DNA from: Candidatus Eiseniibacteriota bacterium
GTDB taxonomy: Bacteria; Eisenbacteria; RBG-16-71-46; CAIMUX01
Reading direction: 5' to 3'
Assembly (NCBI GenBank): GCA_903844735.1
Contig: CAIMUX010000027.1
Location: 1 to 61,463 of the forward strand
DNA length: 61,463 bases
Both the position numbers and the translations under genes were made by a program. Numbering within the stretch: the first letter of the stretch is position 1; each line of letters begins with the position of its first letter. The notes beneath the pieces were generated by a model. That model was not told where the DNA came from and made no database searches. It was given only the letters and a program-made list of their open reading frames with translations. This document shows, piece after piece, positions 27,718 through 39,480 of the stretch.

Positions 27718-28122
27718 ATGAAACGGCCCAGTCCCGAGGAGATCGAGCTGCTGCACGGAAGGCTCTGCCAGGCTCTGGCGGATACGACCCGCATTGCGGT
27801 GCTCTACGAACTGGCCGCCGGGCCTCGCCATGTCACGGCACTGGTGGAAGCACTCGGGCTGCCCCAGGGTACCGTCTCCCGCCATCTGCGTGTCCTCCAT
27901 CAACGGGGTCTGGTGGTCACTCACCGGATCGGAACGAAGATCGAGTACCGGCTCAAGGACGAGCGGGTCGTCCAGGCCCTGGATCTTCTGCGCGCTCTGC
28001 TCGCCGATCAGTTGGAGCACGAGACGGCCCAAGCCGCCCGGATCCGGGCGGCAAAGAAGTTCACGCGCGGGCAGGGCAGCCAGGCTCGACCGCGCAAGAC
28101 GCGAACCACGGAGGTCCCATGA
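27718..28122 (+). CDS. ArsR/SmtB-family winged-helix regulator
   Basis: The 134-residue DNA-binding repressor-type protein has an HTH core from about 10 to 90: LCQALADTTRIAVLYELAAGPRHVTALVEAL, GLPQGTVSRHLRVLHQRGLVVTHRIGTKIEYRL. Only one Cys is present (in GRLCQAL), so it lacks both the metal-binding CXC and the two-Cys persulfide switch of BigR/SqrR-type ArsR proteins; its signal is unknown. ATG 27718 with GGGAGGAAGC upstream is preferred over ATG 27694, which lies in the operator. It is first in the sulfur/cytochrome cluster and overlaps the FadL-like gene by 4 nt. Confidence 0.9.
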   Translation: MKRPSPEEIELLHGRLCQALADTTRIAVLYELAAGPRHVTALVEALGLPQGTVSRHLRVLHQRGLVVTHRIGTKIEYRLKDERVVQALDLLRALLADQLEHETAQAARIRAAKKFTRGQGSQARPRKTRTTEVP

Positions 28123-29444
28123 GATCCCTACGATCCCTGTTCCTGGCCGGCTTGGCCGCATCTGTCCTCTGTCCCGCCGCCCACGCCACCAACGGCATGA
28201 ACATGATCGCCTATGACGCCGTTTCCGCCGGCATGGGGGGCGCCGATGCTGCCGTGGAGACAGGATGCACAGCGGTCGCGGCCAATCCCGCCAACCTCTC
28301 GACTCTCTGCAAGAGCTCGCTGGTGGTGAACCTTTCGCTCCTCGCGCCCAAGATCGGTTTCGCCAACACCTCGATGTCCGGTGCCAACGACCTGGACGGC
28401 AAGAGCCAGATCTTTCCACTGCCCTTCCTCGGGTACGCCAATCGAGTGGGGGAAAGCGGACTGGCCTGGGGCTTGGGCCTCTTCGCCCAGGGCGGGATGG
28501 GCGTCGACCTGCGCGATGTTCACACCAATTTCGGCACGAGCGATCGGATCTATTCGAACGTCCGCTACATGCGCCTCGCGCCGACGCTCTCCTATGCCGT
28601 AACCGAGAAGCTCGCCCTCGGCGCTACGGTGCACGCCGGGTATTCGGACATCGCTTACAAGTTCTTCCCGAAGACGAGCTACTACAGTCCCGGACAAGAT
28701 GACACGCCGGGCACCGCCGACGACATGGCCTTCCCCGGGCAAGCGCTGAAAGGGGCCAGGAGCCTGGGTGTCGCCTTCCGCGCCGGCGCCCGCTATGAAG
28801 TCACGCCCAAGCTCTCCTTCGGCGGGACCTACACTTCCAAGTCGACGCTCGACTACAAAAACGGCGATCTCGACATGAACTTCACGGCGATGGGGCTGGG
28901 CCCGGTGCGATACGACGCTTCCGTAGACGGGTTCGATTGGCCCGCGGCCGTCGAGGGTGGAGTGGCGGTAAAGCTGCTCGAGAACACGTTGACCATCGCG
29001 GGAGACGCACAGTGGATCAACTGGTCCGACGCCCTCAAGACCGTCACCGTCAAGGGCGACAGCCCCGACAACCCGAATGCCGCGCCGTCGGTGCAGATCC
29101 CCTTCATCTTCAACTGGGACGACCAGATGGTCTACGCCGCGGGCGCCGCCTGGGCATTTTCCGAACGCGACATCGTTCGTGCGGGGTACAACTTCGCCTC
29201 GAACCCGATCCCTGATGACTGTGTCTATCCGCTCTTCCCAGCGACGACGGAGAGCCACGCGACGGTCGGTTATGGCCGGTCCTTCAATCGCGTGCTCGTT
29301 GACCTCGCCTACGAGCACGCGTTCGAGAGCAAGGCAACAAACTCGAACACCAACCAGATGGAGAACCCGTTCGGTCCGGGGGACCGGATCACCCACGCAC
29401 AGAACACCCTCCACGTGGCCGTCACCTACAAACTGCAGGACTGA
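28119..29444 (+). CDS. FadL/OmpP1-family outer-membrane transporter
   Basis: The 441-residue beta-barrel has a signal peptide (SLFLAGLAASVLCPAAHA) and a mature N-terminus TNGMNMIAYDAVSAGMGGADAA, the N-terminal hatch motif of FadL (TNG...G-G-A). AVAANPANLS follows, then alternating strands to a terminal aromatic-poor VAVTYKLQD. FadL-type channels bring hydrophobic compounds across the outer membrane. Coupled by overlap to the ArsR gene and followed immediately by the cytochrome lipoprotein, it may admit a hydrophobic or aromatic/sulfur substrate for this system. Substrate unknown. Confidence 0.9.
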   Translation: MRSLRSLFLAGLAASVLCPAAHATNGMNMIAYDAVSAGMGGADAAVETGCTAVAANPANLSTLCKSSLVVNLSLLAPKIGFANTSMSGANDLDGKSQIFPLPFLGYANRVGESGLAWGLGLFAQGGMGVDLRDVHTNFGTSDRIYSNVRYMRLAPTLSYAVTEKLALGATVHAGYSDIAYKFFPKTSYYSPGQDDTPGTADDMAFPGQALKGARSLGVAFRAGARYEVTPKLSFGGTYTSKSTLDYKNGDLDMNFTAMGLGPVRYDASVDGFDWPAAVEGGVAVKLLENTLTIAGDAQWINWSDALKTVTVKGDSPDNPNAAPSVQIPFIFNWDDQMVYAAGAAWAFSERDIVRAGYNFASNPIPDDCVYPLFPATTESHATVGYGRSFNRVLVDLAYEHAFESKATNSNTNQMENPFGPGDRITHAQNTLHVAVTYKLQD

Positions 29445-29449
29445 CGAGC

Positions 29450-30724
29450 TTGCCACGAATCCGAGTTCTGGCTCGACGCGCACTGCCGGTCGTGCTTCTG
29501 ATTCTGCTGGCGTGCGCGTCGTCCCAAACCGCCCTCCTGCTACCCGGCGGCAACCGCACCGCGGTGACCCGGCCGATCGAGATCCTGTTCACGGGAGACG
29601 TGGGAGGGAAGCTCGAGCCCTGCGGGTGATCCCGCCACCCCAAGGGGGGTCTCGCCCGGCGGGCGGGAAGGATCGGACAGCTACGGGGCGATTCGAGCGC
29701 GGTCCGCTTCCAGGTCGACGCCGGCAACCTGCTGCGCACTGACGGCCCGCCGCGGGAGCGACGGCGCATCAATGGACTGCTCATCGAGCTAGTCATGCAG
29801 AGCGGGCTCGATCTGCTCAACGTCACGCCGGGTGACCGTGCCGAACTCGACTCGCTGGACAGCCGACCCGCCTTCCTCGGCCCAGACGAAGATCCCACCT
29901 GGGCAATGCTCAAGCGCGCCGGAATCACGATTGCGGCCCTGCCGCTGGGCCGCGTCGATCGGACCCGGCTCGACATGTTTCGCTCCGATGCGGCGCTGCG
30001 GGTGGGGTCTCGCCCTCCGGACGCCGCCTTGAGCATTGCGCTCGCGACGGTGGAAGGGGTGGAGGACGAAGAGATTCTGGAGGCCCTGCCCAAGGTGGAC
30101 GTCCTTCTGCTCTCCCGCGGCGACACGAGCTACCGGGCAGCGCGGCGGATACATGAAACCATCGTCGCCTATGCCCCCGCGCAGGGTCAGTATCTCGGAC
30201 GCCTTCGGGTTCAGCCTGGAGGGCCGGTAAATGTTGAGTGGCTCTCGCTCTACGGCCCGGGACTAGCCGATCACGACGTGTCCGACCGGATCGCCTCGCT
30301 GAACCTGGAATTGCGCGACATCCGCAAGGCCGAGGCGCGGCGCCGCGAGCCCGCACCACAGAACCCCCGCTGGGCGGCTGCCCAGGCATGCGAATCGTGT
30401 CATCGCAGCGTGGTGGAGAGCTGGAAGCGCAGCGGCCACGCGCGCGCGATGGCAACCCTCGTGAAGGCGGGCCGGGATTTCGACCCGGATTGCCTTCGTT
30501 GTCACGTCACCGCCTGGGGCGACGGATACGTCGACCCATTGGCGACGCCGCAGCTGGCCGATGTGCAATGCGAAGCGTGCCATGGTTCGGGAGCCCTGCA
30601 CGTCCAAGATCCCTCCCACTCCCTCGGCGCGACGCCGCCCGGGCTCTGCCTTCGCTGCCACACAAAGGAGAACAGTCCCGAGTTCGATGACGGTAGGTAC
30701 CGCGATCGCATCCGTCACTGGTGA
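29450..30724 (+). CDS. Probable selenocysteine-containing tetrahaem cytochrome c lipoprotein (UshA-like N-terminal domain)
   Basis: Reading through an in-frame TGA at 29627-29629 gives one 424-residue protein. TTG 29450 starts a lipoprotein signal (VVLLILLAC lipobox). Residues 45-280 resemble the metallophosphatase/5'-nucleotidase-like domain found in some periplasmic cytochromes: ILFTGDVGGKLEPCG-U-SRHPKGGLARRA, then FQVDAGNLL. Homologues have EPCGC at this site as I recall the family, so TGA falls exactly on a Cys (residue 60), with Cys58 two before it. The C-terminus has four haem sites, CESCH, CLRCH, CEACH and CLRCH (about residues 314-404), cytochrome c554-like. A hairpin follows the TGA. 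If TGA is a true stop, only a 59-residue peptide is made and downstream ATG 29795 yields a protein with no export signal. Start codon choice is moderate; 5 nt after fadL. Confidence 0.75.
29627..29663 (+). promoter_or_regulatory. UGA codon and candidate bacterial SECIS hairpin
   Basis: TGA at 29627 is followed by CCCGCC (29631-29636) pairing with GGCGGG (29658-29663). An inner stem ACCCC (29637-29641) pairs with GGGGT (29646-29650), closing on an apical loop AAGG. A 3' bulge CTCGCCC separates the stems. A stem-loop just after the UGA with G in its loop about 15 nt downstream is the known layout of bacterial SECIS elements read by SelB. The pairing is seen by eye; it has not been folded or covariance-tested. 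Confidence 0.6.
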
Positions 30725-30879: not shown

Positions 30880-31317
30880 TTGCCCGGTCTACTCAGATTC
30901 TCGGAAGCGGCCGCCCTCGCCCTGCACGCCATGGCCCGCGTGGCGGTGGGACGCGGCGACGTCTTGAGCGCCAAAGCCCTGGCCCGTGACTGCCGGGCGT
31001 CCGAGGCGCACATGATCAAGGTCTGCCAGCGGCTGGCTCAGGGAGGCCTTCTGACGTCCCACCGCGGCGCCGCCGGCGGGTTCACGCTGGGAAAGAAGGC
31101 CGGGCAGATTCGTCTCCTCGAAATCTACACGCTGATCGAGGGTCCCGTCGTTCTCAGGCCGTGCCTGTTCCAGAATCACACGTGCATCGGAGACCACCAC
31201 AAGGAGTGCGCCTTCGGAACCATGATCATGGAATTGGAGAGAGACGTCCTCCGATACCTGAAGACCACAACCCTGGCCGCGGTGGCGGCCAGGTGCACCT
31301 CCAGGGAGGCACGATGA
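30880..31317 (+). CDS. Rrf2-family iron-sulfur-type regulator
   Basis: The 145-residue winged-helix regulator (IscR/NsrR family) has the HTH SAKALARDCRASEAHMIKVCQRLAQGGLLTSHRGAAGGFTLG and the wing Gly-Gly-Phe. The C-terminal sensor region holds three Cys: PCLFQNHTCIGDHHKEC (C-X6-C-X7-C), close to the cluster ligands of NsrR (C-X5-C-X7-C). It therefore probably senses NO, redox state or iron-sulfur status. TTG 30880 is preceded by GGTGGAGG. It overlaps the octahaem cytochrome gene by 4 nt, a position typical for Rrf2 genes that control multihaem reductases. Confidence 0.9.
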   Translation: MPGLLRFSEAAALALHAMARVAVGRGDVLSAKALARDCRASEAHMIKVCQRLAQGGLLTSHRGAAGGFTLGKKAGQIRLLEIYTLIEGPVVLRPCLFQNHTCIGDHHKECAFGTMIMELERDVLRYLKTTTLAAVAARCTSREAR

Positions 31318-32741
31318 AGCGCACGCGGTACGTCCAGGCCTGGATGATAGCGATCGTTCTCATCCTCGCCGCCCTCGGCGCGTTTCTCGCCAGGGGCCGC
31401 ACCGGTCCCGAACGCGGCCGGGCGGAAGCCGCAGGCCCAAGAACTCCGCACAGCCACCTCGATCACACGCCCTACTTCACCGCCCCGTTCGCATCGCCCC
31501 AGGCGGTTACGCGCGCCTGCCTGAAGTGCCACCCCGAGGAGGCGGTCGATTTCATGAAGACCGCGCACTGGCAGTGGCTCGGGGGCGAGATCACGGTGCC
31601 GGGCCACCCGCAGCCGATGCGGATCGGGAAGAAGAACCTCCTCAATAACTTCTGCATCTCCATCACCGGCAACTACGCCGCCTGCACGAAGTGTCACGCC
31701 GGCTACGGCTGGTCGGACGCCAGCTTCGACTTCACCCGGGCCGAGAACATCGACTGCCTCGTCTGCCACGAACGGACCGGTGCTTACGTCAAGGGCAATG
31801 CGGGAATGCCGGCGAAGGAGTCCGATCTGCTCGCGGCGGCCCGGTCGGTGGGGTTCCCCCGGCGGGAGAACTGCTCCGTCTGCCACAGCTACGGGGGCGG
31901 CGGCCAGGGGGTGAAGCACGGGGATCTCGACAGCAGCCTGGAGAATCCGTCCGGCGAGGACGACGTCCACATGGGGACGCACGCGTTCCTGTGCATCGAT
32001 TGCCACCGCACCACCAAGCACAACGTCTCGGGTCGCGCGTTCTCGGTGAGCGTGGAAGATTCAAACGGCATCGGCTGTACCGATTGCCACCAGAAGCCGC
32101 CCCACGCGGACCCGAGGATCAACGCCCACATCGCCTCCGTGGCTTGCCAGACCTGCCATATCCCGATGTACGCACGGAAGCTCCCCACAAAGACATTCTG
32201 GGATTGGAGCAAGGCGGGCGATCCGAGTCGTGAGGAGAATCCTCATCACTACCTGAAGATCAAGGGCGAGTTCGTCTACGACCAGAACGTCGTTCCGGAA
32301 TACCTCTGGTTCAACCGCAGCGTCGATCGCTACCTCCTCGGCGATGCGATCGACTCGACACGGGCCACGGACATCAACCGGCCGCGGGGCGACATCCACG
32401 ACCCCGCCGCGAAGATCTGGCCTTTCAAGGTGCACCGCGCGCTCCAGCCGTTCGACCGCAAGAACAACGTCCTCTTGCCCCCGGTCACGGGGGGCGAAGG
32501 CGGGTACTGGAAGACATTCAACTGGGACCAGGCGATGAGGCTCGGCGCTCAGGCCTCGGGCATCGGGTACAGCGGCTCCTACGGCTTCGCGAAGACGGTG
32601 ATGTACTGGCCCCTGTCTCACATGGTCTCTCCGAAGGAAGAGGCGCTCCCATGTAACGCCTGCCACGGGGAGCAGTCGCGGATGGACTGGGCAGCACTCG
32701 GGTACGAGGGCGATCCGATCCGCACGGGAGGCCGGCGATGA
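31314..32741 (+). CDS. Octahaem tetrathionate-reductase (OTR)-family cytochrome c
   Basis: The 475-residue periplasmic protein has an N-terminal anchor/signal (AWMIAIVLILAALGAFLA) and eight haem motifs: CLKCH, CTKCH, CLVCH, CSVCH, CIDCH, CTDCH, CQTCH and CNACH. Other OTR features are FMKTAHWQWLGGE near haem 1, the NNFCISI segment, GTHAFLC, and a long region YDQNVVPEYLWFNRSVDRYLLGD before the last haem. In vitro, OTR-type enzymes reduce tetrathionate, nitrite and hydroxylamine; the physiological substrate is not settled. Sulfur-transport neighbours favour a sulfur oxyanion here. ATG 31314 with AGGGAGG. Coupled to the next gene (4-nt overlap). Confidence 0.93.
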   Translation: MKRTRYVQAWMIAIVLILAALGAFLARGRTGPERGRAEAAGPRTPHSHLDHTPYFTAPFASPQAVTRACLKCHPEEAVDFMKTAHWQWLGGEITVPGHPQPMRIGKKNLLNNFCISITGNYAACTKCHAGYGWSDASFDFTRAENIDCLVCHERTGAYVKGNAGMPAKESDLLAAARSVGFPRRENCSVCHSYGGGGQGVKHGDLDSSLENPSGEDDVHMGTHAFLCIDCHRTTKHNVSGRAFSVSVEDSNGIGCTDCHQKPPHADPRINAHIASVACQTCHIPMYARKLPTKTFWDWSKAGDPSREENPHHYLKIKGEFVYDQNVVPEYLWFNRSVDRYLLGDAIDSTRATDINRPRGDIHDPAAKIWPFKVHRALQPFDRKNNVLLPPVTGGEGGYWKTFNWDQAMRLGAQASGIGYSGSYGFAKTVMYWPLSHMVSPKEEALPCNACHGEQSRMDWAALGYEGDPIRTGGRR

Positions 32742-35107
32742 TCCGCACAACTCGGACCTTCCTGCTCGCGCCGCTCGCGCTGCTGGCGCTGCTGACGCTG
32801 GTGGCGCTGATCGGCACGGTGGCCTCCGCCGCGCCCCTGGCGCCCGCGGTCCATCAGGCCTCGACGCCCGCGGCCCATCCGGTTTCGGCGCCACCTGTGC
32901 CCACAGGACCCCAAGCGAACCCGATGCACCCCGCCTTCGTGGTGCTGGACGAGACCGGCGCCCCGGCTCTGGTGTCCGGCAGGCCTCCATCCTCGGAAAG
33001 AACCTGCGGGGCCTGCCACGACGCTTTGTACATCCGCGCGCACGACGTTCACTGGAACGATCGCGTGAGGGCGGCCTGCGTCGAATGCCATTTCCGGGGC
33101 GGGCAGTTTCCCAGCGACCCGGCGGCCTACGATGCGACAGGGAAGCTCCGTCGCGAGGCGATCCGCATCTCCGCGCCCCGCGACGAGAACTGCGCCTCGT
33201 GCCACGGGATCGTCCACGAGGGAGACGATCCCGTTTCGATTCCCGGCAGCTTCGGTCCTCGGACCGATCCCGCCGCGAAGGAGACCTACGACCTCACCTT
33301 GGACACGGGCGCGATCATCTCCTCGCAGGACGTCGCCCACTCGTACCTGAACCTAGAGGCCAAGGCGGGACGGGACTACCCCTGGGACGTCCACGCGCGG
33401 AGGCTCGTCGCCTGCGTGGACTGCCACTATGCTCCGAACAACCCGGCCAAGGCCGAGGTGAAGCAGGCCAAGCTGGACTTTCTCGTCGAGGACCCACGGC
33501 GTATTCCGATCTCGACGTTTCTGCACGAGCCGGACCATCGATTGGCCACCGCATCCTGCCGCTCGTGCCACGACCCTAGGAAGGCCCACGACTTTCTTCC
33601 GTACAAGGAACGGCACTTCGAAGCGCTGGAGTGCGAGGCCTGTCATATCCCTCACCCCTTGGGCCCGGCGGCCGGGGTGATCGACGCTACCGTGATCACA
33701 ACGGACGGGCGGCCGCTGGTCGAGTACCGGGGCGTGGCGCGGCGGGAGGGCGAGTCGTTCAACGCGGCCTACGCCCAGGGTTATTCCCCCATCCTCCTCC
33801 CCCACCGCGGCCCGGGCGGCGTGACCAAGCTGGCTCCGTTCAACGTGGTCGACAACTGGTTCTGGTCCGACGGGCCGAATGGCTCCGCGATCCAATCCGG
33901 CCTGATCGCCAGGGCCTATGTCGAGGACGGTCACTACGTCCCGCCGATCCTAGCGGCCTTCGATGCCAATCAGGACGGCCGGCTGGGTTCATCGGAGCTC
34001 CGCCTCGACACCGCAAGCAAGACCGACGTAGTCCGGTCGCGGCTGCGCGCGCTCGGTGTCCACGATCCGCGGATCCGCCGGGATGTCTCGTTCCATCCGA
34101 TCACCCACGGGGTGCAGGCGGGCGCGCAGGTTCAGCGGGACTGCGCGAGCTGTCACGAGAGACGATCCCGCCTGAGCGACGGCCTCGCTCTCGCGTCGTA
34201 CACACCGGTTGGCGCCGATCCGTCCTCTCAGAACCCGCCGGTCGACCCGAGCATCCTTGCTCAGATTCAGACGGGTCGCAACGGCGCCTCGGCCGTGCCA
34301 AGCCCCTCCCCGAACCTCTATGTCCTCGGTCACTCTCGGCGCGGATGGGCCGATCGGCTCGGCTTCGTCGTCTTCGTCGCCACTCTCCTGGGCATCGGCG
34401 CTCACATTCTTTTCCGGATTCTCTCGCGGCCGTCGAGGAACGCGAGCGCGCGGCCTACGACACAGCGGGTCTACCTGTACGGCGCCTACGAGCGGCTCTG
34501 GCACTGGCTCATGGGCTTCAGCATCTTGGCACTCATGGTGACGGGGCTCCAGGTTCACTTCTTCGGCGCGTGGCAACTCATCACGCTGCCGAGGGCAGTG
34601 GCCGTCCACAACTTCTTCGCGGTCGTGCTGGCCCTGAACGCCTTTCTCTCGCTCTTCTACCACCTCGCCACGAGCGCGATCCGGCAATTCCTGCCGGCCA
34701 AGAAGAACCTGATCGAAAACATCACCGCGCAGGCCCACTACTACACACGGGGAATCTTCCTCGGGCAGCCTCACCCGTCGCCGAAGACGCCGGAACGCAA
34801 GCTCAACCCGCTGCAGCAACTCACCTATCTCGCGCTGTTAAACGTGCTCTTCCCCCTGCAGGTCGTGACGGGCGCCCTCATCTGGGGGGCATCGCGGTGG
34901 CCGCACCTGGCGCAGGCTACCGGGGGGCTCACACTGGTCGCGCCGCTGCACAGTCTCTGTGCCTGGTTCTTCCTGGCGTTCTTCTTCGTCCACGTGTACC
35001 TCACCACGACCGGGCACACCGTGCTTTCGAACATCGCCGCGATGGTCAACGGATACGAGGAGATCGAGCTGAAGCACCCCGCCACCACGGGAGGATCGAA
35101 TGTCTGA
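32738..35107 (+). CDS. Heptahaem cytochrome c fused to a membrane cytochrome b
   Basis: The 789-residue protein starts with a signal (LLAPLALLALLTLVALIGTVASA) and has seven CXXCH sites: CGACH, CVECH, CASCH, CVDCH, CRSCH, CEACH and CASCH (about residues 89-470). An EF-hand-like DANQDGRLGSSEL lies near residue 410. From about residue 530 the chain is membrane-bound: WADRLGFVVFVATLLGIGAHI, then a cytochrome b561/NapC-linked-type four-helix unit with His residues in ERLWHWLMGFSILALMVTG, VHNFFAVVLALNAFLSLFYHL, PLHSLCAWFFLAFFFVHVYL. It is the natural quinol-oxidising electron donor to the octahaem protein, moving electrons from the membrane to the periplasm. Overlaps both neighbours. Confidence 0.9.
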   Translation: MIRTTRTFLLAPLALLALLTLVALIGTVASAAPLAPAVHQASTPAAHPVSAPPVPTGPQANPMHPAFVVLDETGAPALVSGRPPSSERTCGACHDALYIRAHDVHWNDRVRAACVECHFRGGQFPSDPAAYDATGKLRREAIRISAPRDENCASCHGIVHEGDDPVSIPGSFGPRTDPAAKETYDLTLDTGAIISSQDVAHSYLNLEAKAGRDYPWDVHARRLVACVDCHYAPNNPAKAEVKQAKLDFLVEDPRRIPISTFLHEPDHRLATASCRSCHDPRKAHDFLPYKERHFEALECEACHIPHPLGPAAGVIDATVITTDGRPLVEYRGVARREGESFNAAYAQGYSPILLPHRGPGGVTKLAPFNVVDNWFWSDGPNGSAIQSGLIARAYVEDGHYVPPILAAFDANQDGRLGSSELRLDTASKTDVVRSRLRALGVHDPRIRRDVSFHPITHGVQAGAQVQRDCASCHERRSRLSDGLALASYTPVGADPSSQNPPVDPSILAQIQTGRNGASAVPSPSPNLYVLGHSRRGWADRLGFVVFVATLLGIGAHILFRILSRPSRNASARPTTQRVYLYGAYERLWHWLMGFSILALMVTGLQVHFFGAWQLITLPRAVAVHNFFAVVLALNAFLSLFYHLATSAIRQFLPAKKNLIENITAQAHYYTRGIFLGQPHPSPKTPERKLNPLQQLTYLALLNVLFPLQVVTGALIWGASRWPHLAQATGGLTLVAPLHSLCAWFFLAFFFVHVYLTTTGHTVLSNIAAMVNGYEEIELKHPATTGGSNV

Positions 35108-35654
35108 AGCCAACGCCACACCTAAGCGGGTTCGGACGCCCAAGCCGCCACGGGCGTACATCAATCCCTACCTCGGCGGCGCTCTGCTCGGGGTCGTCCT
35201 CTTTCTCTCCTTCTACATCACCGGCAACGGTCTGGGCGCTTCCGCCGCGATCAACCGGGTGCAGGTCGCGATCCTGAATGTGTTCGCCGCGGGCCATGTG
35301 GACCGGGTCGGGTACATGTCCGAGATGGGCGGCGGGCATCGCAACGCCCTCGACCACCCGTCGGTCTTCATGCTTCTCGGGACGTTCCTCGGCGGGGCGC
35401 TCTCCGGCTTGCTCAATCGGAGGCTGAAGTTCGAGACCCGGCGCGGACCGCGCATTTCGGTTCCGGCACGCTGGGCTATCGCCTTCCTCGGCGGGGCCAT
35501 CATGGCGTACGGCGCCCGCCTGGCCCGGGGCTGCACCTCCGGCCAGGCCTTGAGCGGGGGCGCCGTGCTCTCGGTCGGCAGCTTCGCGTTCATGTTCTCG
35601 ATCTTCATCGCGGCGTACGCGCTGGCCTGGTCGCTCCGGCGACTCTGGACTTAG
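35100..35654 (+). CDS. YeeE/YedE-family sulfur-compound transporter, first half
   Basis: The 184-residue membrane protein has about four helices: GGALLGVVLFLSFYITGNGLG, FMLLGTFLGGALSGLL, WAIAFLGGAIMAYGARLARG and FAFMFSIFIAAYALAW. The conserved Cys motif ARGCTSGQALSGGAVLSVGSF is that of TsuA/YeeE proteins, which carry thiosulfate or sulfide-derived sulfur through a Cys relay. Paired half-size YeeE genes (PmpA/PmpB-like) are common. It overlaps the cytochrome b gene by 8 nt and precedes the second half by 12 nt. Confidence 0.92.
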   Translation: MSEANATPKRVRTPKPPRAYINPYLGGALLGVVLFLSFYITGNGLGASAAINRVQVAILNVFAAGHVDRVGYMSEMGGGHRNALDHPSVFMLLGTFLGGALSGLLNRRLKFETRRGPRISVPARWAIAFLGGAIMAYGARLARGCTSGQALSGGAVLSVGSFAFMFSIFIAAYALAWSLRRLWT

Positions 35655-35666
35655 GAGGAGGACATC

Positions 35667-37016
35667 ATGGCTCCTTTCAACATCACGCCGCATGCGGGAG
35701 TAGTCGCCTACTTTCTGGTCTTCTTTCTCCTCGGGCTGGGATTCGGCGTCGTGCTCGAGCTGTCGGGATTCGGCGACTCGCGGAAGCTCGCCGCGCAGTT
35801 CTATCTGCGCGACTTGACCGTCATCAAGGTGATGTTCACCGGCATCGTCACGGCGGCCATCCTCATCCATCTGGCTTCCGCCTTCCAGCTCCTGGACCTG
35901 TCCCGCGTCTGGGTCAACCCGACGTACCTCGTACCGGGGATCGTGGGCGGGCTGATCATGGGGGTCGGGTTCATTGTCGGAGGGTTCTGTCCGGGGACCT
36001 CGCTCGTCGCGGCCGCCACGTTGAAGCTGGACGGCATCATGTTCGTACTGGGCGGCCTCGTCGGCGTTTTCTTCTTCGGCGAGACGGTCCACTTGTTCGA
36101 AGGGTGGTGGCAATCGACCTACCTGGGACGATTCACCCTCCCCGACTGGCTCGGCCTGCCGACGGGGGTGACCATCCTGCTCCTCGTCGCGATGGCGCTC
36201 GGGATGTTCTACCTGGCGGAAATCGCCGAGGCGCGGTTCGGCAATCGCCAGGTGGTGCAAGGCCGCCGGGCGTTTCCTGGCCGTCGGGCGCTGTTGGTCG
36301 TCGCCGGTTCGCTCGCCGCTCTCTGCTTCACCCTGATCCTCAAGGGACAGCCGAGCGTCGAGGACCGTTGGAGCTGGATCTCGAAGGGCGGTGATCGTCA
36401 GCTTGCCGGCCGCGAGATCTTCGTCGACCCCGCCGAGGTCGTCGATCTGCGCCGCGACCTTTCGCTTTTCGTCCGGATCTTGGAGGTGCGCAGCGAAGCG
36501 GACTACAACCTGTTCCATCTCGCCGGATCCGAGCGGATCGACATCGATTCCACGAGCCACCCCGTTTTAGTCCGAAGTCTCCTCGATGACACCGACAACA
36601 CGATCGTATTTCTCGCAGGCAACGGGGAGCAGGACGCCGTCGAAGCCTGGAAGCGGCTGCGGGCGCAGGGCGTGCTGAACCTGTACGTGATCGAGGGAGG
36701 CATCAACCACTGGCTGGAGGTCTACCCGGTCGGACCGTGCGTGGCGCAGCGCATCGAGGGGACCGACGCGAGTGCGGAAGTCCGCGGAGGAGAGACGCTC
36801 CGCTACCGCTTCCTCGCCGCCGTAGGCGAGCAGAGCCCGTCGGCCCATCCTGAGGTAGCGCGGCGGGAGTATGTTCCCGATTGCGCAATGGCGTCCCTCG
36901 CCGGACCCGCGGGATCGGTCGCCTCGGCTTTCACCGGGGGAAACGCACCGAGGCGGGACTACGCGAAGAAGGTCAAGATCCAGAAGAAGACGGTGGCCAA
37001 GGGAGGGTGCGGCTGA
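35667..37016 (+). CDS. YeeE/YedE transporter fused to a rhodanese-like domain lacking its catalytic Cys
   Basis: The 449-residue protein has an N-terminal YeeE/YedE half of about 225 residues: ELSGFGDSRKLAAQFYLRDLTVIKVMFTGIV, GLIMGVGFIVGGFCPGTSLVAAAT (Cys relay). A further helix is RALLVVAGSLAALCFTLIL. A rhodanese fold occupies about 245-350: FVRILEVRSEADYNLFHLAGS and LYVIEGGINHWLEVY. In the active loop the usual Cys is lost (IVFLAGNGEQDA), so it cannot form a persulfide there. The tail ends in a Lys-rich stretch and the sequence VAKGGCG, a terminal Gly-Gly-Cys-Gly that could act as a mobile thiol. AGGAGGAG ribosome-binding site. Confidence 0.9.
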   Translation: MAPFNITPHAGVVAYFLVFFLLGLGFGVVLELSGFGDSRKLAAQFYLRDLTVIKVMFTGIVTAAILIHLASAFQLLDLSRVWVNPTYLVPGIVGGLIMGVGFIVGGFCPGTSLVAAATLKLDGIMFVLGGLVGVFFFGETVHLFEGWWQSTYLGRFTLPDWLGLPTGVTILLLVAMALGMFYLAEIAEARFGNRQVVQGRRAFPGRRALLVVAGSLAALCFTLILKGQPSVEDRWSWISKGGDRQLAGREIFVDPAEVVDLRRDLSLFVRILEVRSEADYNLFHLAGSERIDIDSTSHPVLVRSLLDDTDNTIVFLAGNGEQDAVEAWKRLRAQGVLNLYVIEGGINHWLEVYPVGPCVAQRIEGTDASAEVRGGETLRYRFLAAVGEQSPSAHPEVARREYVPDCAMASLAGPAGSVASAFTGGNAPRRDYAKKVKIQKKTVAKGGCG

Positions 37017-38596: not shown

Positions 38597-39180
38597 TGTC
38601 AAGATTTCCGTGTAACCGACCATCTCAGATTCCGCCTTCGAAGGCGATGGTGAAGTGATTGATGGCCGCGGGCCAGGCGTAGATCGAGTTCCTCCAGTTC
38701 GCCGAGGCCTTCTGGATCGCAAGGTAGATGACCTTCCGGACGGACTCCGGGTTCGGGAATGCCCCGCGCTTCTTGGTGACCTTTCGGATGCTCGAGTTGA
38801 TCGATTCGATGGCGTTGGTCGTATAGATCACCTTCCGGATCGCTTCGGGGTAGGCGAAGAACGGCGACAGGTGCACCCAGTTCTGCTCCCAGCCCCGCCC
38901 GATGGACGGGAACTTGACGTCCCACTTGGCCCGGAACGCATTCAGAGCGGCCCGACCCGCTTCCTCAGTCGGCGCCGTGTAGACGGCGCGCAGGTCGGCC
39001 ACCACGGCGCGCCGCTCCTTCCAACTCACGAAGCGCAGGGAGTTGCGGATCATGTGGACGATGCAGAGCTGCACCTGCGTCTTCGGGAACACCGCTTCGA
39101 TCGCCTCCGGGAAGCCCTTCAGGCCGTCGATGCAGGCGATCAGGATGTCCTTCCGTCTTGAACTGTTGCATGATCTGCAA
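38597..39180 (-). mobile_element. Truncated IS256-family insertion sequence
   Basis: The minus strand encodes the C-terminal half of an IS256-family (mutator-like) transposase: ILIACIDGLKGFPEAIEAVF, CIVHMIRNSLRFV, GWEQNWVHLSPFFAYPEAIRK, TTNAIESINSSIRKVTKKRG (catalytic Glu). The frame ends at 38625. Upstream it breaks after ILIAC: the preceding residues sit in another frame (QQFKT), so there is a frameshift near 39150, and the N-terminal half with the first catalytic Asp is gone. On the transposase 3' side, TTACACGGAAATCTTGACA (rc of 38596-38614) is a typical IS256 terminal repeat. No matching left end is found. It is dead DNA between the sulfur cluster and BREX. Confidence 0.85.
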
Positions 39181-39480
39181 CGGTTGCCTGCCCCGGCTCT
39201 GCCGGAGTGTCCGCCCCCGAAGTGTCTGGTCCCGATCCACGAGAAGTCCTCCCTTGCGCAATGTTCGATGCCTGCCAGCACAAGGCCCACTCGCACGATT
39301 CCTGGCTCCGTACCCAAATCCGGTGCCCCCACCCTCGGCGATCATCGTCACCGGCTACTCCCGTCCGGCCCGACCGACTGCCATCAGGCGGGCCGCCGCA
39401 TTGTACTCGCGTCCGCCGCGGCAGCCCAAGGGCCGCGTGCCGGCGAGATGCCCTGGCCTGACCCGATGCGCCCCGGACCT
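39181..39480. other. Gene-free stretch between IS256 remnant and brxHI
   Basis: No coding frame resembles a known protein. A short hairpin CCGGC-TCT-GCCGG lies near 39192. It may include the lost half of the element's insertion scar; nothing else is seen. Confidence 0.3.

Follow-up and report, generated by a model that had tools for sequence, protein, structure and literature searches.

UshA-like selenoproteins carrying a CxU motif (COG0737) were reported in 2008 (GOS, PMC2398784), and they are also listed in later reviews (PMC9312934 and PMC13188914); no mention of haems in the family was found in the passages of these three articles that were searched. A further family, NF049981 or UshA-like (seleno)protein family 2, is listed as CxxU in PMC13188914. 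Other selenocysteine (Sec)-containing multihaem c-type cytochromes have also been described, namely ExtKL of Geobacter (NF040886), which adjoins a porin and other cytochromes (PMC5877670), and MccSep (PDB 9wt8 and others).

The gene discussed here (29450–30724, forward strand) lies in a contig of Candidatus Eiseniibacteriota (CAIMUX010000027.1, positions 1–61,463), and this whole 61,463-nucleotide stretch is referred to below as the window. Its product shares the CxU motif in a UshA-like protein with the COG0737 group, and its best family match is NF041198 (UshA_like_PCGU, "UshA-like (seleno)protein"; 187.5 bits, E = 3.6e-55, below the cut-off of 275), with which it shares a UshA-like domain with PCG[U/C] followed by a C-terminal haem region. 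It differs in that its nucleotidase-like domain is shorter, as in a group of short Cys forms (L003, L004, L006, L007 and L076) that also score below the cut-off (184–202 bits). A number of UGA forms likewise score under it, including two from the phylum to which the window belongs; all 37 aligned homologues match the family. The window protein scores 41.9 bits on NF049981 (cut-off 140), which shares the UshA-like domain but differs in its CxxU motif, as listed in PMC13188914, and 13.1 bits on the ExtKL model (cut-off 250). ExtKL and MccSep likewise have Sec in a multihaem c-type cytochrome, but they resemble the window protein or the family profile only weakly and only in the haem region. The original prediction, made from the window sequence, had proposed a new kind of multihaem protein. 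That claim does not stand, since the architecture is already modelled by NF041198 and selenium is already represented among multihaem cytochromes by ExtKL and MccSep; together with the 2008 report, these make the window gene a divergent addition to a known kind.

The gene and its reading frame

With its internal TGA read as Sec, the gene encodes 424 residues, from a TTG start at 29450 to a UGA stop at 30722–30724, and the only internal stop is an in-frame TGA at 29627–29629, corresponding to residue 60 in the context EPCG-U60-SRHPKGGLARR. A likely Shine-Dalgarno sequence for TTG 29450, AGGA, was identified by eye at 29437–29440, within the 3′ end of the upstream porin gene. The first 22 codons (29450–29515) specify a likely lipoprotein signal peptide, also recognized by eye, with the sequence LILLAC and a lipobox (LLAC) ending in Cys22; residues 3–24 form a helix in the structural model. 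A 5′-nucleotidase/SoxB-like domain that has lost its metal-binding and catalytic residues follows at about residues 43–266 (29576–30247), and it includes the Cys58-Gly59-Sec60 site (29621–29629), which was assigned from the reading frame and the alignment of homologues. The C-terminal part contains exactly four CXXCH motifs: CESCH (C314; 30389–30403), CLRCH (C348; 30491–30505), CEACH (C374; 30569–30583) and CLRCH (C400; 30647–30661). No further stop interrupts the frame after the UGA. Thus, the lipoprotein signal before the UGA and the four haem sites after it are both where the original prediction placed them.

The standard-code open reading frame begins at ATG 29795 and spans 309 aa. A gene caller using translation table 11 would most likely start there, so the N-terminal part is probably lost in ordinary annotation, in agreement with the earlier expectation that gene callers would miss it.

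UGA/Cys exchange among homologues

Homologues were gathered from 80 related loci in named genomes and from a phylum search that gave matches in 46 of 47 genomes, and those counted (n = 78) possessed the motif and at least three haem motifs downstream. The codon for residue 60 is TGA in 36 of them and a Cys codon (TGC or TGT) in the other 42, at exactly the same position, and the homology spans the UGA, with EPCG[C/U]....GGLARR aligning on either side. Both the coding similarity flanking the TGA and the existence of Cys-type relatives with EPCGC at this site, as put forward earlier, are supported. In a 37-row alignment in which residue 60 was written as Cys, the CXXCH residues are invariant, as are C58, residue 60, G66, G67 and R70. 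Latescibacterota, Zixibacteria and Myxococcota are among the groups with UGA forms, and TGA is also found in a second PCGU copy in the same genome and in most copies in the window's phylum.

These observations bear directly on whether the UGA is a true stop, with the remainder of the gene decaying or only the 309-aa cytochrome being made from ATG 29795. Such a pseudogene might be suspected because the window protein forms a long branch in a quick tree and has no close relative with which selection could be tested; a search for a close homologue found none, the best being about 31–37% identical. A decaying gene would nevertheless have to account for 35 further genes, from assemblies of several phyla, that have UGA at this very residue, for the retention of family-invariant residues on both sides of it, for the lack of any other stop or frameshift, and for the complete Sec machinery of the genome (see below), and this explanation is very improbable. 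An assembly or base-calling error, with TGC or TGG as the true codon, is if anything even less credible; the Cys codon TGC is a single base away from TGA, but the TGA recurs in the second genomic copy and in most copies of the phylum, and the window gene also possesses the SECIS word GGUCU. Accordingly, the stop-only, pseudogene and sequencing-error readings were rejected on the basis of the UGA/Cys pairs in independent assemblies and the second genomic copy.

When Sec and Cys were mapped as a label on the quick tree, at least nine changes were required, five of them forced by well-supported branches. The placement of the window protein differs between two quick trees, beside the short Cys clade in one and near myxococcal forms in the other, and an AU test on three placements rejected none of them. 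For L108, L118 and L124, a Sec and a Cys paralogue sit side by side in one locus, an arrangement that suggests duplication followed by Sec/Cys exchange. Another copy (L045), from a record titled Klebsiella pneumoniae, clusters with MAG copies from myxococci and other proteobacteria and probably derives from a mislabelled metagenome bin.

Predicted selenocysteine insertion

A candidate bSECIS region extends from 29630 to 29668, immediately after the UGA, and comprises the word GGUCU at 29648–29652 (+19 to +23) and a stem-loop at 29650–29668. Bacterial SECIS elements are described in PMC13188914 as a stem-loop, 16–37 nt from the UGA, whose first two loop positions include a G. Free folding downstream of the UGA of the window gene yielded a hairpin whose GGC loop begins at +29, and the hairpin with a G in its loop that had been foreseen at SECIS distance is indeed present, with a stability at shuffle level only. 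By itself this hairpin is weak evidence, because its fold energy is no better than that of shuffles (z = 0.00; z = 0.12 in a second test), and a SECIS call from fold energy alone was dropped as uninformative for the window.

The comparison across the family is more telling. Among named genomes, GGUCU occurs at +19 to +23 in 13 of 15 UGA forms versus 1 of 22 spacing-matched Cys forms (Fisher p = 3.8e-7), and SECIS-type hairpins exceed codon shuffles in UGA forms (mean z 1.29, versus 0.07 in Cys forms; p = 2e-7), including when only named genomes are considered (1.08 versus 0.08; p = 0.002), all of these p-values overstating independence in that kin sequences were counted separately. In the window gene the word is written GGT CTC, although GGT makes up only 12% of Gly codons. 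GGUCU is found in the same place in E. coli fdhF, where it is the SelB-binding loop, and a check against 5,368 E. coli genomes bore out the fdhF sequence. The word is not universal, since many UGA forms within the window's phylum have a shorter spacing or lack it.

All four components that the original prediction had proposed looking for are encoded in the same genome: SelA (437 bits), SelB (325 bits, in one long frame that includes the C-terminal part), SelD (368 bits) and a tRNA-Sec with anticodon UCA (73 bits). The selD gene (C103:143022–143945) carries an internal TGA and its product is probably a selenoprotein itself. The second PCGU tetrahaem gene (C42:19737–20996) also has an in-frame TGA; it is of the orthodox type and clusters on the tree with relatives of its own order and family. 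Across the family, SelA exceeds its cut-off in 13 of 15 UGA genomes versus 21 of 34 Cys genomes, which is in the expected direction but discriminates weakly. Taken together, the UGA/Cys pairs, the Sec machinery, the second PCGU gene and the GGUCU word make Sec by far the best reading, and judged from sequence, UGA 29627 is almost certainly decoded as Sec through SelB, tRNA-Sec and a SECIS element in the coding sequence that follows.

Fold, metal site and haem domain

An AlphaFold2 model of the window protein, built with Cys at residue 60, has a pLDDT of 85.7 and a pTM of 0.82. In structural comparison, which included Foldseek, it matches 5′-nucleotidases and SoxB (Z about 22 over model residues 38–351). 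The fold is thus shared with SoxB, UshA and CD73, but the window protein differs from these enzymes in lacking their metal-binding and catalytic residues and in possessing the additional CGU motif and haems. None of the Asp, Asn and His positions examined against CD73, among them its metal ligands, is kept, and the DxH motif is missing in 77 of 78 family members. The C-terminal domain belongs to the cytochrome c554 family (PF13435, 56.8 bits versus a gathering score of 20.8; related structure PDB 1bvb).

It is conceivable that the UshA-like domain acts as a metal-dependent, hydrolase-like enzyme in which Sec is a metal ligand and has no redox role. The 5′-nucleotidase/SoxB fold would fit, as would the His found at the CD73 His243 position in 20 of 36 UGA forms and at the His220 position in 16 of 36, which also means that metal loss is not family-wide. 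This alternative is nonetheless unlikely, given the loss of every examined ligand position from the window protein, the near-complete absence of DxH from the family, and the haem domain, which suggests electron transfer. Alternatively, the CGU site could be structural or sensing, a non-catalytic element regulating the haem domain. The many Cys/Sec exchanges are in keeping with such a role, and so is one relative (L103; G010:C324:2219–3484) that carries PTGU in place of PCGU, with Thr replacing the partner Cys and the UGA kept, so that Sec is not paired with Cys in every member. Against this, Cys58, Cys/Sec60 and the GG that follows are invariant in the 37-row alignment, and Sec is generally kept in proteins for catalysis; a purely structural or sensing site is about as improbable as a metal-bound Sec. 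A Cys-Sec redox site wired to the haems is the reading we favour, with somewhat better than even confidence, and less for any single substrate.

Genomic neighbourhood

Directly upstream, a PorV/FadL-like outer-membrane protein is encoded at 28119–29444 on the same strand (NF033709, 52.5 bits, below the cut-off of 90). The gap between its stop codon and TTG 29450 is 5 bases, and it is a probable operon partner of the selenoprotein gene. Downstream, also on the forward strand, lie genes for an Rrf2-family regulator (30880–31317; TIGR00738, over cut-off), an octahaem cytochrome of the tetrathionate reductase family with eight CXXCH motifs (31314–32741; TIGR04315, 552 bits, cut-off 375), a fusion of a seven-CXXCH cytochrome with a thiosulfate-reductase-type cytochrome b (32738–35107; below family cut-offs), and a YeeE/YedE (TsuA-like) membrane protein (35100–35654; below cut-offs). 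The octahaem cytochrome, the cytochrome b fusion and YeeE/YedE-like membrane proteins form one run from 31314 to 37016, a candidate sulfur redox locus. PMC13188914 lists selenoprotein members of the TIGR04315 family; the copy in the window has no in-frame UGA. Near the end of this locus, an ORF on the reverse strand (38625–39332) resembles, by eye, a mutator-type (IS256-like) transposase.

The octahaem cytochrome, cytochrome b and YeeE neighbours suggest sulfur or selenium chemistry for the window locus. A search for these neighbours around other family loci found no matches, and recurrent neighbours of family loci are confined to groups of close relatives.

Proposed function and significance

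The product would be an exported, probably lipid-anchored protein, in which a degenerate UshA/SoxB-type domain may bear a Cys-Gly-Sec pair instead of metallophosphatase chemistry. The pair could react with a sulfur or selenium compound, such as a persulfide, thiosulfonate or selenite species, and the cytochrome c554-type tetrahaem domain would then pass electrons to or from neighbouring cytochromes. The suggestion of a sulfur or selenium substrate draws on the similarity to the SoxB fold and on the neighbours, the latter peculiar to the window among the family loci searched. The broader picture, in which an inactivated metallophosphatase fold has become an extracytoplasmic Cys-Sec redox enzyme, permanently coupled to a tetrahaem domain and acting on a sulfur or selenium substrate in many phyla, with the window gene as a separate, shortened branch inside an octahaem/YeeE-type sulfur locus, is offered tentatively, as a possibility that falls short of an even chance.

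To date, the family has been catalogued with no function assigned to it, and the published lists consulted note only the CxU motif. Selenium-based electron transfer outside the cytoplasm becomes a testable proposal for it, given the consistent tetrahaem domain, the disappearance of metal-binding residues from part of the family and the repeated exchange of Sec and Cys.
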